A program made the position numbers and the translations under genes. Below are positions 8,028-15,582 of a DNA stretch of 43,756 bases, piece by piece (positions within the stretch are counted from its first letter, which is position 1; each line of letters opens with the position of its first letter). Origin of the DNA: Candidatus Woesebacteria bacterium GW2011_GWB1_33_38 (GTDB taxonomy: Bacteria; Patescibacteriota; Microgenomatia; UBA8517); assembly GCA_000990005.1 (NCBI GenBank), contig LBPF01000010.1, forward strand, positions 1-43,756, written 5' to 3'. The notes below the pieces were generated by a model. It was not told the DNA's origin. It saw only the letters and a program-made list of their open reading frames with translations, and made no database searches.

Positions 8028-8390
8028 CTACTTTACGAATCTTGTATTTCCTTTTTTAATTACAATTAAACTTTTCTGATTTTGAATTAATTTTTTCAAG
8101 TTTTTGTCTAAAAATTGCTTCAATACAAAATTAACACTTTCAGGTGTTTGATTTTCAAGTCTTAAAACAATAATTCCTGTGCTACTTGATTCTTTTTGAT
8201 GATAAATTTCACCAAAGTCCAAATCAAAAGTAATTATTATTCTTTTCTCTTTTTTAGCTAATTTTATTATTTCTATGTCTTCTAAATAACCTAATCCTTC
8301 TTCTGTTATGCTCTTTGAATGATACCCACGCTGGTTTAGAAATCTTGAGGATATTGGAGATAAATTAGCATCAAGCAGAAATTTTATCAT
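8028..8390 (-). CDS. DUF5615-family PIN-like toxin
   Basis: MIKFLLDANLSPISSRFLNQRGYHSKSITEEGLGYLEDIEIIKLAKKEKRIIITFDLDFGEI. Confidence 0.8.
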   Translation of the reverse strand: MIKFLLDANLSPISSRFLNQRGYHSKSITEEGLGYLEDIEIIKLAKKEKRIIITFDLDFGEIYHQKESSSTGIIVLRLENQTPESVNFVLKQFLDKNLKKLIQNQKSLIVIKKGNTRFVK

Positions 8391-8402
8391 GAAATGTGAA
8401 CA

Positions 8403-8639
8403 TCATGCAAAACTAAATTTAATATTATTTGGAACAATTTCTTCTCTTTCAACAATTCCTTGTGCAAAATCAAGAGAAGCCTTAATATCTTCTTTTTTTA
8501 GAACTGGATAAGCTTTAATTATTTTGTCCATTGTGTAACCATTTTTGATTAAATTAAGAATTGTTGCTACAGCAATTCTAGTCCCATCAATTGTGGGCTT
8601 ACCAACATTTATTCGTACATCTGTTTTTATTTTTACCAT
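8403..8639 (-). CDS. DUF433-family antitoxin
   Basis: GKPTIDGTRIAVATILNLIKNGYTMDKIIKAYPVLKKEDIKASLDFA; TGATATAAT 6 nt upstream of ATG. Confidence 0.85.
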   Translation of the reverse strand: MVKIKTDVRINVGKPTIDGTRIAVATILNLIKNGYTMDKIIKAYPVLKKEDIKASLDFAQGIVEREEIVPNNIKFSFA

Positions 8640-8690
8640 AAATTTATTATATCATCAAAGTACAAACTTTTGTTTGTTTAAGGAAAAATT

Positions 8691-8699
8691 TGATATAAT
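8691..8699 (+). promoter_or_regulatory. Extended -10 TGATATAAT for the tRNA-like RNA
   Basis: Six nt upstream of GGAGCG at 8706, same geometry as start codons elsewhere in the window. Confidence 0.6.
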
Positions 8700-8705
8700 T
8701 TGGAA

Positions 8706-8870
8706 GGAGCGATAGTGAAAGATAGCTAATGACGCTACATTTGGGAACACCTGGCGTATTTTAAATACTGATTAATATAGATGCTGTAGGACTTTATATT
8801 TTTATAAAGTAAGGGGTGGAGCTATATTAATAAACCCAGAATGAGAGTTCAAATCTCTCCCGCTCCGCCA
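8706..8870 (+). ncRNA. tRNA-like RNA (~165 nt), unassigned
   Basis: GGAGCG (8706-8711) pairs with CGCTCC (8861-8866), then G-CCA; T-arm GAGAG-TTCAAAT-CTCTC (8843-8859); 10-bp ATTAATATAG/CTATATTAAT (8771-8780/8822-8831); 8-bp ACTTTATA-TTTT-TATAAAGT (8791-8810); TTTGGG/CCCAGA (8740-8745/8835-8840). Confidence 0.65.
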
Positions 8871-9157
8871 TGATGTATGAAAAAATTGTTTTAACTGGAG
8901 GCTGTTTTGATATTCTCCATATTGGACATATTAAGTTTTTGAAGAAAGCTAAAAGTTTTGGAGATTATTTAATAGTTCTTTTGGAATCTGATGAAAATAT
9001 TAAAAAATTAAAAGGCAAAGACAAACCTATTTTTAGTTTAAAAGAAAGAATAACAATTTTAAAACCAATTAAATATGTAGATAAAATAATTGTTGTAGCT
9101 AAAAATCCCACTCATGAAACTTATTTAAAATTAATAAAAGACTGTGGGGAAGATTAA
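8870..9157 (+). CDS. Nucleotidyltransferase (RfaE/TagD-like cytidylyltransferase fold), C-terminally truncated
   Basis: VLTGGCFDILHIGHIKFLKKAKSFGDYLIVLLESDENIKKLKGKDKPIFSLKERITIL; stops at 95 aa. Confidence 0.65.
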   Translation: MMYEKIVLTGGCFDILHIGHIKFLKKAKSFGDYLIVLLESDENIKKLKGKDKPIFSLKERITILKPIKYVDKIIVVAKNPTHETYLKLIKDCGED

Positions 9158-9556: not shown

Positions 9557-9940
9557 TTAATAATCTTTAACTTTAATGAGAAGTTCTTCAACTAATGGAG
9601 GAAAATATTTCAGGTCTTTATAGACACTTCTTGCTTCATCTTCTTTATAAGTATGAGCAGTAGTATTTCTATCTGCCAAAAATTTAAACCAGATTTCAGG
9701 ATCATTTATAATACCTAAATTGGCTGAATCTCTAATAATTGTTTTTACTCCACGAGAGGTATCAACACGATTCTCAATCAATACTTCCTGCATAAGTTTC
9801 CATGAAAGTTCAAAAGTAAATTCGAATCTTTGTATCGAAGCATCTTGATTGACAATATTTTCTGATGGGAGGACGAGAACTTCTTTTAATTTTTCAAGTG
9901 CTTTCTTCAAATCGTTATTAATAGATTCTCTCTTTGTCAT
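9557..9940 (-). CDS. HEPN-like nucleotidyltransferase substrate-binding protein (HI0074 family)
   Basis: IQRFEFTFELSWKLMQEVL...FLADRNTTAHTYKEDEA. Confidence 0.85.
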   Translation of the reverse strand: MTKRESINNDLKKALEKLKEVLVLPSENIVNQDASIQRFEFTFELSWKLMQEVLIENRVDTSRGVKTIIRDSANLGIINDPEIWFKFLADRNTTAHTYKEDEARSVYKDLKYFPPLVEELLIKVKDY

Positions 9941-9944
9941 AAAA

Positions 9945-10241
9945 TCAATTTAAATATATCACATTTTGCATAGCAGCTTTTCTAAAATTATCAGCCACCT
10001 TAGAAAAATCAACTATATCAACTTTATAGGGAATATCTGATTGATCAAAACCCTCTTCTAGATCCATTTTTGTTGTTACTGGAATTTCATCTTGCGACTG
10101 TATTCCAAGATCGATATCACTGAATTTTCTATTTTTTCCACTTGCTCTTGAACCAAATATAAAAACTTTTACACCTTTAGGATCTATATACTTAAAAACT
10201 ATTTTTTTTACTTCATTCTTTAGCACAGGATCAATAGTCAT
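9945..10241 (-). CDS. MNT-type minimal nucleotidyltransferase
   Basis: VKVFIFGSRASGKNRKFSDIDLGIQ (GSx10DxD); start set to ATG 10241, 6 nt after TGCTATAAT. Confidence 0.85.
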   Translation of the reverse strand: MTIDPVLKNEVKKIVFKYIDPKGVKVFIFGSRASGKNRKFSDIDLGIQSQDEIPVTTKMDLEEGFDQSDIPYKVDIVDFSKVADNFRKAAMQNVIYLN

Positions 10242-10307
10242 ATTAAAATTATAGCATAATTTGTTTTGTGAAAAGACTTTCTTGTTGCACAAGATACTTC
10301 ACGCACT

Positions 10308-11994: not shown

Positions 11995-14900
11995 GTGATT
12001 AGTAAAAACATGCAAAACGACAACAAAACAAACACAACAAAAATAACACCAGAATCACAAAACACAGACATAGTTAAACCTGTCATTCAAAACCCTGTGG
12101 CCATGGTTGAAAGTGGAGAAATGCAACTTCATGACGTAATTGCACCAAATGATGTTGAGGTTGATTTTGATTTTGTTAAAGTCAATAACGTCTACTACAG
12201 AACCTTGTTTGTTGCAGGCTATCCAAGGTTTGTTGCTCCTGGCTGGCTTGAGCCAGTTGTTAATTTTAATAGCTCTTTGGATATTTCTTTTTATGTTTAT
12301 CCCGTCCAGGGGAAATCCGTACTTGATGACTTGCGCCGTAAAATTGCAGAAATGGAGGCTGAAATTTCAACGGATATTGAAAGAGGAAGAATAGTTGACC
12401 CTTCAACAACAGCAAAACTAGAAGATGCTAGAGCCTTACAAGAACAACTTGTTAAAGGAATTGAAAGGTACTATGAATTTTCATTTTATATAACAATTCC
12501 TGCCAATTCAGTTGATGAGTTAAATAATATCAGTCGTCAAATTGATTCACTCTTAGGTTCTTTATTAATTATTGCCAAACACGCATCACTTGATCAAAGA
12601 GAAGGATTTTTAGCATCAGCTCCATATGGACAAGACAGATTATCAATTACCAGAAACATGGATACTACATCGGTTGCTACTACTTTTCCATTTACATCAG
12701 CAGAACTTTCGTCTGACAGGGGAGTTTTGTATGGAATTAATTCCCAAAATGAGTCCTTTATTATCTTTGACAGGTTCTCTTTAGAGAATGGGAACATGAC
12801 TGTCTTTGCCACTTCGGGCGCGGGAAAGTCAACGAATTTTTCATGTCCTATTTTATATCAAGATCAAAAAGGAAATACTAAACATGGGAAAATTGGTGAA
12901 ATGATAGAAGAAATTATTAAAAAAGGAAAACTTGAACAAATAGAAAAAGATATCGAAGGTGTTTACAATCCTAACATTAAAGTTTTTGCCTTTGATAAAA
13001 ACCTAAAAGGAAAATGGTCTGATGTAACCATTGCGGCAAGAAAAGTATCTCCAAAATATTTATACAAAATGGAAACGAGAAGCGGGAGAAAAGTTACCAT
13101 TACGAAAGACCACTGTTTAGTGTGCCTTAAAGATGGAAATGTTGTTACAACTAAAGGAGATATTGTTCAAATAGGAAATTATTTACCTGTTCCACGACAA
13201 GTCAAACAATCTGAAATAAGATTTGATAATGCCTATAGTGAAGAACTTTTAACACTCCTTGGATTGTTTACCAGCGAGGGACATATTGGAAAAAGAGTAT
13301 CAATCTCCAATACCGACAATAAAATTTTAGAATTGATTGCTAGGGCATCAAAATATCTATGTTTGGACATCTCACCAATTTATAATTACCCATCTAAAAC
13401 TCAAGTTAGAGGATATTATTTTAAAAACAAAGGTTTACTTAGATTAATAAAAGATATCGCGGGCGATGGAAAATCAGGTACAAAAAGAGTACCATTCCCA
13501 ATTTTTAGTCTTTCAGACAAACAAATATCAATATATTTAAAAGCATATTTTGAGGGCGACGGCGGAGCTGAAAGTCATGAAATTACAGCAACAACCAAGT
13601 CTGAAAATCTGGCATCAGATCTGGCATATTTATTATTACGCTTTGGAATTATTGCCAGAATCCATAGTAAGATTAAATCTGCAACAAACACCGTTGCAAA
13701 AATAAAAAGAGAATATTATCAAATTTCAATATCAGGCCAAGATAATATTAGAAAATATATTGATGAAATAGGATTTATTACTAAAGAAAAAAACGACAAG
13801 GCTTTAAAACTTCTCAAAAAATCGAACACAAATTTTGATGTTGTTCCTGAATTACAAAGTATTTTCAAAGAAATCTATGATGAACTTTACAATTCAGAAA
13901 TTCCAGCCCCTAAAAACTTTTCTGAAGTTAAGCTTGGAATATTTAAACCATCAAGGGAAAAACTTTTAAAAATAATCTCTGGAATAAAAAATAGAATTTA
14001 TGAAATAGAAAGTTTAGAAGGAGACGGGATTTCAAAACTAACTGCCCTTCCAACAGTTCAGCAAATAATTGAGAAGGGGAAAGATAAAAGATTAAACACA
14101 CTTCTTTGGAAAAGTTTAGATCATTCATGGAAAACGATGAGAAACGGCATACCACCTTACACAAAAAATGCATTAATTGCGGCAAACATTACGCACGGAT
14201 ATGATATTGAAATAGATGAGGTGGGACGAGCTTTATATAGGTCATTCAAATTTACAGGAGTTTCACTAGAAAAATATGATTCTCCCCTTTGGGAATCAAC
14301 ACTTTACAGACATGCAAATGCCCAGTATGAAAAGTTATTAAAAGCAAGAGATTATATAACCAAAATCTTTAGCAAAAAATTAAGTTCTTTAAAGAAAATA
14401 AAAGAGAAGGTAGAATGGCTGGAAACATTAGCAAAATCTGATCTTTATTGGGATGAAATTATAAAAATTACTAAAGTTAAATCAAAACATCCTTACGTTT
14501 ACGATTTACAAGTAAACGACTCAGTGTTTTTGGCAGGCTATGGTGGTATGTTTATTCATAACTCCTACTTTGTTAAACTCGAGGCTGTTAGATCTTTAAT
14601 GGTTGGAACTGAGGCAATAATTTTAGATCCTGAAGCAGAGTATAAAGCTCTTTGTGAAGCAGTTGGTGGTGAGTATATTGCCTTTTCATTTAACTCTCCT
14701 GCAAAAATTAATCCATTTGATTTAGCTCAAATCAGAGAAGAAGGAGAAAACCAATTAGGGCTTAAAATTTTATCACTTCACTCTTTAATGAAAGTTATTA
14801 TGGGTCAAATATCTCCAACACAGGAAGCAATGCTTGATCGAGCTTTAATTTTAACTTACAAAGCAAAAGGAATTACAAACGATCCAGAAACACAAACTAA

Positions 14901-15582
14901 AGAACCACCATTAATTGAAGATCTTTATAAGACCCTAATAGGAATGGAGGTTCCTGATGCTCTTGACTTAGCAGCTCGTTTGGAAAAATTTGTCAGAGGA
15001 AGTTTCCAAGGAATATTTGATAAACAAACAAATATAAACCTTAATAATCCCTTTACAGTTTTTTCAGTTAAAGACTTACAAGATGCTCTAAGACCCATTG
15101 CTATGTTTATGATCCTTGACTACATCTGGACTAGAGTTAAAAAAGATATAAAAAGAAGAATATTAATTGTTGATGAGGCGTGGCATATGATGAGATATCC
15201 TGATACTGCACAATTTCTTTGGTCTGTTGTCAAGAGGGCCAGAAAATACTATCTGGGACTCACTACAATCACTCAAGATGTTGAGGACTTCCTAAGTCAG
15301 GACATAGGAAAGGCAATTGTTACCAATAGCGCATTAAGGCTTCTATTAAAACAGTCGCCGGCTGCAATTGATAAAATTGGAGATCTTTTCTACTTGTCTC
15401 AAGGAGAAAAACAATTACTTTTGGCTGCAAATGTAGGAGAGGGAATATTCTTTGCAGGACCACACCATGCACCAATTAGAGTTGTTGCTTCTGAGGAAGA
15501 ACATAAACTTATAAATACTAAACCACAAGATTCACCACAAGGGACCATGCCAAATTTAAAAGCATGGAATAAGGAGGCATAA
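11995..15582 (+). CDS. virB4: VirB4/TraC-type secretion ATPase containing an intein
   Basis: Split Walker A SGAGKS / SYFVKLEAVRSL; Walker B ILIVDEAWHMM. Probable start ATG 12010. Confidence 0.85.
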   Translation: MISKNMQNDNKTNTTKITPESQNTDIVKPVIQNPVAMVESGEMQLHDVIAPNDVEVDFDFVKVNNVYYRTLFVAGYPRFVAPGWLEPVVNFNSSLDISFYVYPVQGKSVLDDLRRKIAEMEAEISTDIERGRIVDPSTTAKLEDARALQEQLVKGIERYYEFSFYITIPANSVDELNNISRQIDSLLGSLLIIAKHASLDQREGFLASAPYGQDRLSITRNMDTTSVATTFPFTSAELSSDRGVLYGINSQNESFIIFDRFSLENGNMTVFATSGAGKSTNFSCPILYQDQKGNTKHGKIGEMIEEIIKKGKLEQIEKDIEGVYNPNIKVFAFDKNLKGKWSDVTIAARKVSPKYLYKMETRSGRKVTITKDHCLVCLKDGNVVTTKGDIVQIGNYLPVPRQVKQSEIRFDNAYSEELLTLLGLFTSEGHIGKRVSISNTDNKILELIARASKYLCLDISPIYNYPSKTQVRGYYFKNKGLLRLIKDIAGDGKSGTKRVPFPIFSLSDKQISIYLKAYFEGDGGAESHEITATTKSENLASDLAYLLLRFGIIARIHSKIKSATNTVAKIKREYYQISISGQDNIRKYIDEIGFITKEKNDKALKLLKKSNTNFDVVPELQSIFKEIYDELYNSEIPAPKNFSEVKLGIFKPSREKLLKIISGIKNRIYEIESLEGDGISKLTALPTVQQIIEKGKDKRLNTLLWKSLDHSWKTMRNGIPPYTKNALIAANITHGYDIEIDEVGRALYRSFKFTGVSLEKYDSPLWESTLYRHANAQYEKLLKARDYITKIFSKKLSSLKKIKEKVEWLETLAKSDLYWDEIIKITKVKSKHPYVYDLQVNDSVFLAGYGGMFIHNSYFVKLEAVRSLMVGTEAIILDPEAEYKALCEAVGGEYIAFSFNSPAKINPFDLAQIREEGENQLGLKILSLHSLMKVIMGQISPTQEAMLDRALILTYKAKGITNDPETQTKEPPLIEDLYKTLIGMEVPDALDLAARLEKFVRGSFQGIFDKQTNINLNNPFTVFSVKDLQDALRPIAMFMILDYIWTRVKKDIKRRILIVDEAWHMMRYPDTAQFLWSVVKRARKYYLGLTTITQDVEDFLSQDIGKAIVTNSALRLLLKQSPAAIDKIGDLFYLSQGEKQLLLAANVGEGIFFAGPHHAPIRVVASEEEHKLINTKPQDSPQGTMPNLKAWNKEA
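12844..14562 (+). mobile_element. Intein with LAGLIDADG homing endonuclease in the VirB4 P-loop
   Basis: N-terminal CPILYQDQKGNTKHGKIGEMIEE; ITKDHCLVCLKDG; LLGLFTSEG and YLKAYFEGDG motifs; C-terminal YVYDLQVNDSVFLAGYGGMFIHN|S. N-boundary could instead be Ser at 12829. Confidence 0.9.

Follow-up and report, generated by a model that had tools for sequence, protein, structure and literature searches.

Here, we describe a 165-nt gene in Candidatus Woesebacteria bacterium GW2011_GWB1_33_38 that, judged by comparison with a second copy, encodes a structured RNA of a rare, patchily distributed and previously undescribed family, rather than being a broken tRNA gene. It lies on the forward strand, at positions 8706–8870 of the 43,756-nt stretch of DNA that was analysed (hereafter the window). 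The new-family assignment is preferred over that of a decayed tRNA because the homologue keeps the promoter, the motifs and the helices. Its most likely role, to which we give a probability of about 0.5, would be that of a stand-alone small RNA acting in trans and equipped with a tRNA-like handle. To our knowledge, few bacterial RNAs join a tRNA-like end to a non-tRNA body, tmRNA and YrlA being the established ones; both are parts of RNA–protein machines. If Patescibacteria, with their reduced genomes, possess a third kind, it would offer a compact and testable example of tRNA mimicry put to a new use. The case also illustrates how a real RNA family can pass as a "broken tRNA" and be missed by tRNA finders and Rfam.

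The RNA gene and its promoter

The locus is organised as follows:
8670–8699, forward strand: promoter, read from the sequence, with TTGTTT at 8670–8675, an 18-nt spacer and the extended −10 element TGATATAAT at 8691–8699
8706–8870, forward strand: RNA gene, 165 nt, predicted transcript start at G8706
8870–9157, forward strand: truncated cytidylyltransferase-like ORF, the first ATG of which shares A8870 of the CCA

An earlier note on this DNA, made from the letters alone, had placed a tRNA-like RNA without a 5′ leader at 8691–8870. This span takes in the promoter, the RNA itself covering 8706–8870, and the predicted start is borne out: the 3′ end of TGATATAAT is found 6 nt before G8706, which occupies the canonical start position as nucleotide seven behind the −10 element, and the homologue described below has a like promoter at equal spacing. 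A hexamer scan, within its limits, did not flag the promoter. The following features, too, were found as the note described them. GGAGCG (8706–8711) pairs with CGCTCC (8861–8866), followed in the window copy by the discriminator G8867 and by CCA (8868–8870); the T-arm GAGAG-TTCAAAT-CTCTC, with the 7-nt loop UUCAAAU, occupies 8843–8859; and a 10-bp A+U-rich helix (8771–8780/8822–8831) encloses an 8-bp hairpin (8791–8798/8803–8810). The window copy, which is the only one in its genome, has an MFE of −42.2 kcal/mol (z = −2.3).

Neither ARAGORN nor Rfam recognises the element. The former called neither a tRNA nor a tmRNA, and no family of Rfam 15 reached its gathering score, the best being tRNA (RF00005) with 21.8 bits for a cut-off of 29, a sub-threshold match that rests on the T-arm and the 3′ end. 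The window genome (G000; Patescibacteria, 845 kb, 97% complete) holds four instances of a 6-bp acceptor and a perfect T-arm 100–200 nt apart, compared with 0 to 7 in Markov-simulated genomes; when a correctly spaced TATAAT is added, one instance is left, the simulations giving 0, 1, 0, 0 and 0. The acceptor/T-arm geometry alone is non-decisive, and the window sequence by itself could be a decayed tRNA. Since this geometry is not clearly above chance, a homologue is essential, and we consider the one that was found to be the decisive evidence for a real RNA.

A homologue in "Candidatus Pacebacteria"

With the window copy as its only input, a covariance model (R1) was made and used to search 51 genomes of the family and 382 of the class. 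The class search returned a 176-nt sequence scoring 41.8 bits (E = 5.8e-9) in a Pacebacteria MAG, "Candidatus Pacebacteria" bacterium CG_4_10_14_3_um_filter_34_15, which belongs to another family of the same class (G369:C64:5262–5437, corresponding to L156:1501–1676 or L170, PFJN01000013.1). This is the one true homologue obtained among related genomes, and it retains the promoter, the core motifs, the T-arm and the helices. A pattern scan of an 85,000-species collection recovered it again, together with eight unrelated places. ARAGORN makes no call on it and Rfam gives no match, tRNA (RF00005) included.

The homologue promoter, TGGTATAAT, is spaced by 6 nt as in the window, both copies having TGRTATAAT followed by 6 nt. 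They also share URGUNANAGA behind the acceptor strand, CAU..GRGAANACCYGGCGU, UNUAG facing AAGNGGGUGG in the long arm, and CCRGAAUGAGNGUUYAAAUCUCUC. Compared with dinucleotide shuffles, the alignment of the whole RNA has p ~1e-6; the likeness reaches beyond the T-arm, since the part before it alone gives p ~2e-4 in local alignment. Compensatory pair changes number 11 in the model-based alignment (A3) and 9 in the MAFFT alignment with the revised structure (A5), against 0 to 3 in control structures whose partners were slid by 1–3 columns. The fold of the homologue is no more stable than those of its own shuffles (z = −0.9). Its T-loop is UUUAAAU and no CCA is encoded in place, two features that weaken the reading of the element as a tRNA mimic.

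Structure of the RNA

The revised anatomy, in window coordinates and on the forward strand throughout, comprises:
8706–8712, forward strand: P1, 5′ strand GGAGCGA of the acceptor-like stem, pairing with 8860–8866 with an A7.C66 mismatch; four compensatory changes
8713–8722, forward strand: conserved 10-nt joiner URGUNANAGA at the place of the tRNA D-arm, the window copy having no D-loop GG (alignment A5)
8723–8737, forward strand: P2 hairpin (8723–8726/8734–8737), with two compensatory changes relative to the homologue
8738–8757, forward strand: conserved core CAUNNGRGAANACCYGGCGU, which holds the P3 5′ strand CUGG (8751–8754)
8771–8780, forward strand: P4, 5′ strand, pairing with 8822–8831
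8785–8789, forward strand: internal-loop motif UGUAG (UAUAG in the homologue)
8791–8810, forward strand: P5 apical hairpin (8791–8798/8803–8810), three compensatory changes
8811–8819, forward strand: internal-loop motif AAGGGGUGG (AAGUGGGUGG in the homologue)
8822–8831, forward strand: P4, 3′ strand, pairing with 8771–8780
8836–8839, forward strand: P3, 3′ strand CCAG (CCGG in the homologue), linked by AAU to the T-arm; one compensatory change
8843–8859, forward strand: P6, T-arm-like hairpin of 5 bp with loop UUCAAAU, from sequence and alignment
8860–8866, forward strand: P1, 3′ strand CCGCUCC, pairing with 8706–8712
8867–8870, forward strand: G73-CCA end, not conserved in the homologue

Among the predicted helices, the case for P1, P5 and P6 is convincing and that for P4 good. 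The homologue keeps 8 of the 10 P4 pairs; its MFE structure is without P4. P2 and P3 are supported by the alignment, yet compete with other pairings: both are missing from the MFE structure of the window copy (probability 0.15 for P2 and 0.05 for P3), and P2 is mutually exclusive with the MFE hairpin 8732–8737/8752–8757. Each of the helices rests on one comparison of two sequences. The overall shape is modelled as a four-armed RNA with the upper half of a tRNA and, where the anticodon arm would be, an arm of much greater length. The first-pass helices TAGT/GCTA (D-like), ACGCTA/TGGCGT and TTTGGG/CCCAGA were revised to P2 and P3 after alignment with the homologue, ACGCTA/TGGCGT being a possible alternative state. 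TTTGGG/CCCAGA, previously suggested to adjoin the T-arm, is not kept in the homologue, where CTGG/CCAG (8751–8754/8836–8839) is kept instead.

Proposed mode of action

In the reading that we prefer, two elements are seen in the sequence or strongly supported by it. The RNA has an extended −10 promoter of its own, from which transcription would start with nucleotide 1 of the acceptor-like stem, leaving no 5′ leader; and the transcript folds into a tRNA-type upper half made of the acceptor stem and the T-arm, the D and anticodon arms being replaced by the conserved joiner, the short hairpin and the long arm P3-P4-P5, which carries the conserved internal loop UNUAG / AAGNGGGUGG. The RNA would act in trans, with the upper half as a handle for processing and stability, the enzymes of tRNA 3′-end maturation trimming and protecting it. 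We infer the trimming because no terminator follows the gene; taken with the start at nucleotide 1 and the tRNA-type end, this suggests that the RNA is handled as tRNAs are, in trimming as well as in protection. The long arm and the conserved core would be the effector, and the sequence conservation of the internal loop and of the core does suggest a partner-binding arm. This trans-acting RNA with a tRNA handle is considered the most likely reading because its layout matches those of tmRNA and YrlA, which couple a tRNA mimic with an effector module. A bolder proposal would be that Patescibacteria possess a new class of trans-acting tRNA-mimic RNA, leaderless and matured like tRNA. Such an RNA might carry an amino acid, though not alanine, and its long arm would act on the ribosome or on some other partner, with no part played by the normal tmRNA; we put this proposal forward as a speculation with the odds clearly against it.

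A possible regulatory leader

Alternatively, the element could be a cis-acting 5′ leader, riboswitch-like or otherwise regulatory, that is, a structured 5′ UTR controlling the downstream gene on the same strand. A same-strand frame does lie behind both copies, following without a gap (0 nt) in the window and after ~40 nt, with an SD-like GGAGG, in the homologue, and no intrinsic terminator was found near either copy. Furthermore, two conserved and mutually exclusive pairings are possible, and a switch might work via the strand 8734–8737, pairing either with 8723–8726 or with UGGCGU (8752–8757). T-loop motifs, for their part, occur in riboswitches too. However, the downstream genes are unrelated, as are the other neighbours of the two copies: the frame behind the homologue encodes a TPR-containing protein, while that of the window is cytidylyltransferase-like and truncated, with 95 aa compared with 124 aa in G001, a relative of the same genus whose gene is apparently degenerate too. 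The ORF at 8870–9157 is probably a pseudogene outside the RNA. As this frame is degenerate in both the window and the same-genus relative, a cis role on it is unlikely. In addition, the G001 orthologue has a leaderless TATAAT-ATG start with no such RNA in front, and the closing stem of the element pairs the first transcribed nucleotides, as expected of a free-standing RNA. We regard a regulatory leader as an unlikely explanation.

Comparison with tmRNA and YrlA

The stand-alone RNA of the preferred reading resembles tmRNA (RF00023) in two respects: its upper half is of tRNA type but has neither a normal D-arm nor a normal anticodon arm, and a helix adjoins the T-arm. In tmRNA, the 7-bp helix 1 is followed by a single strand of 10–13 nt, a helix and the T-arm (PMC1168896). 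Both copies have the corresponding seven acceptor positions (one mismatch per copy), 10 unpaired nucleotides, ending in GA, and a 5-bp T-arm. The length, too, approaches that of a reduced mitochondrial tmRNA (189 nt in R. americana; PMC1168896), and jakobid mitochondrial tmRNAs exist that have neither tag nor pseudoknots (PMC3985003). The RNA could accordingly be imagined as a reduced or derived tmRNA paralogue of that sort, with a tRNA-like domain of the tmRNA type set on a connector helix. In favour of this possibility, the homologue has CGGAAUGAGGG where tmRNAs of the class have CGGAUGAGGG, and covariance model R3 weakly matches three of three tmRNA 3′ halves (14.6–18.4 bits); yet these matches, carried by the T-arm, are not above one match to a tRNA-Ser.

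Other observations argue against such a paralogue. The G3-U70 pair is completely conserved in tmRNA (PMC3985003; given as invariant also in PMC1168896) and is absent from both copies, which have A3-U70 in the window and G3-C70 in the homologue. The D-loop and pre-T motifs of tmRNA (GGTTTCGACGG; TTTCGGAY in tmRNAs of the class) are not recognisable in either (p = 0.87 in the window, 0.014 in the homologue), the scores being no better than those of ordinary tRNAs. No convincing tag was seen and, by eye, no frame is conserved between the two copies; ARAGORN calls a tmRNA in neither, RF00023 is not matched, and the predicted structure is without the pseudoknot set. Moreover, G000 already has a normal, full-length tmRNA gene (ssrA; C4:3230–3611, 382 nt, 121 bits). 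Of the reduced tmRNA that had been suggested, the topology stands, and the G3-U70 pair, the tag and the D-loop and pre-T motifs do not; descent from tmRNA seems improbable to us.

YrlA, a bacterial Y RNA, is likewise modular, combining a tRNA-like portion with a long stem. In YrlA, the 5′ and 3′ termini make up the stem bound by Ro60/Rsr (PMC8394870); in the element, they make up the acceptor stem. No YrlA match was obtained with Rfam at E ≤ 10, and no TROVE-domain protein was found in the five genomes tested, both carriers included. By the tests applied, the element falls outside tRNA, tmRNA, YrlA and group I introns, and the earlier description of a tRNA-like RNA that is neither a tRNA nor a standard tmRNA is upheld.

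Distribution and genomic context

At least two members occur among ~790 distinct genomes searched with models R1, R2 and R3, where searches of more than 40 genomes had part of the candidates scored and may have missed some members. The same-genus relatives searched, namely G001 for the window carrier and G379 and G413 for the homologue carrier, do not have the RNA. In 56 relatives, blastn of the element returned nothing but short chance matches and fragments of tRNA T-arms; weak covariance-model matches in relatives (14–32 bits) were mostly ordinary tRNAs, the rest being noise.

This patchiness would suit a mobile-element cargo or a selfish RNA, for example a tRNA-mimicking decoy carried along with toxin–antitoxin or defence genes. 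So would the position of the window copy in a variable island, whose toxin–antitoxin-like modules differ between related genomes (DUF433/DUF5615 and HEPN/MNT in the window, PemK-like and HicAB-like in G001, none in G012). Against it, the surroundings of the window copy show no recognisable integrase, transposase or reverse transcriptase, and the phage and plasmid collections yielded tRNA-Ser T-arms and short chance pieces only, and we doubt strongly that the RNA is such a cargo. The two toxin–antitoxin-like pairs of the window, DUF5615 (PIN-like)/DUF433 at 8028–8639 and PF08780 (HEPN-like)/MNT nucleotidyltransferase at 9557–10292, both on the reverse strand, sit between a 714-aa gene and a PrgI-like gene. 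The window also contains, at 11995–15582 on the forward strand, a VirB4-like ATPase of 1195 aa that is apparently split just past Walker A (TSGAGKSTNFSCPILYQ...GYGGMFIHNSYFVKLEAV), with an insert resembling an intein with a homing endonuclease.

Relation to tRNA genes

The window copy is similar to a type II tRNA-Ser in its acceptor end, G73, CCA and T-arm, with a long extra RNA before the T-arm; unlike a tRNA-Ser, it has no D-loop GG and no anticodon arm. The idea that it accepts serine was founded on G73, G2-C71 and A3-U70, which are found in the window copy only, the homologue having an A2.G71 mismatch, G3-C70, A73 and no G73-CCA. Because this identity set is not kept in the homologue and G000 has a full set of four ordinary tRNA-Ser (anticodons UGA, GCU, CGA and GGA), the seryl-accepting reading is unsupported.

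A decayed tRNA-Ser with an insertion, as the earlier note had also envisaged, or a chance geometry, is very improbable and largely refuted by the homologue, which keeps the promoter and the middle, non-tRNA part. The 3′ end does resemble the tRNA-Ser(GGA) of relatives (GAGGGTTCAAATCCCTCCCTCTCCGCCA), tRNA genes of G000 carry group I introns and other insertions, and the geometry alone turns up a few times per genome. An interrupted tRNA was a serious alternative because G000 has missing or interrupted tRNAs, but no removal of a segment gives a significant tRNA. Among all single-segment deletions of the element, 26 of 2060 produce a tRNA call, a number exceeded in 3 of 60 shuffled controls and nearly equalled (25) in one more, and the structures shown for five of the 26 calls have no proper D-loop.

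The tRNA-Asp and tRNA-Asn genes of G000 that bear group I introns are alike in having tRNA ends with many extra nucleotides between them; unlike these, the element has no group I core, gives no tRNA upon deletion and is too short. The group I intron model (RF00028) leaves it unmatched and matches the tRNA-Asp intron with 76 bits. That tRNA-Asp(GUC) gene (C5:41965–42227, reverse strand) has a small intron of 184 nt according to ARAGORN. The gene at C4:20369–20629 (forward strand), which ARAGORN calls tRNA-Gln and which looks like tRNA-Asn, harbours a 186-nt intron that is similar to the first and shares its core motifs. Both genes are missed by tRNA finders run without an intron search.

Several other tRNAs, among them tRNA-Met, -Phe, -Leu(UAG) and -Ile(GAU), were not found in the 97% complete G000 assembly; they may be in unassembled parts or masked by insertions. 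At C13:27430–27664 (reverse strand), a complete tRNA-Arg(UCU), flanked by the 12-bp inverted repeat CCAAATAATTAA/TTAATTATTTGG, sits within a tRNA-like gene whose acceptor is GGCCTAG/CTAGGTC. The 5′ ends of tRNA-Pro(UGG) (20 nt; C13:20169–20297, reverse strand) and tRNA-Ser(GGA) (14 nt; C4:7721–7868, forward strand) are each duplicated just upstream of the complete gene, from which they are separated by short palindromic inserts (AAGCATAGCTTGGCC and AAGCATAGCTTGTCC, respectively). The AAGCnnnGCTTGGCC motif of these inserts recurs elsewhere in G000, and the insert looks like a short mobile repeat hitting tRNA D-loops.
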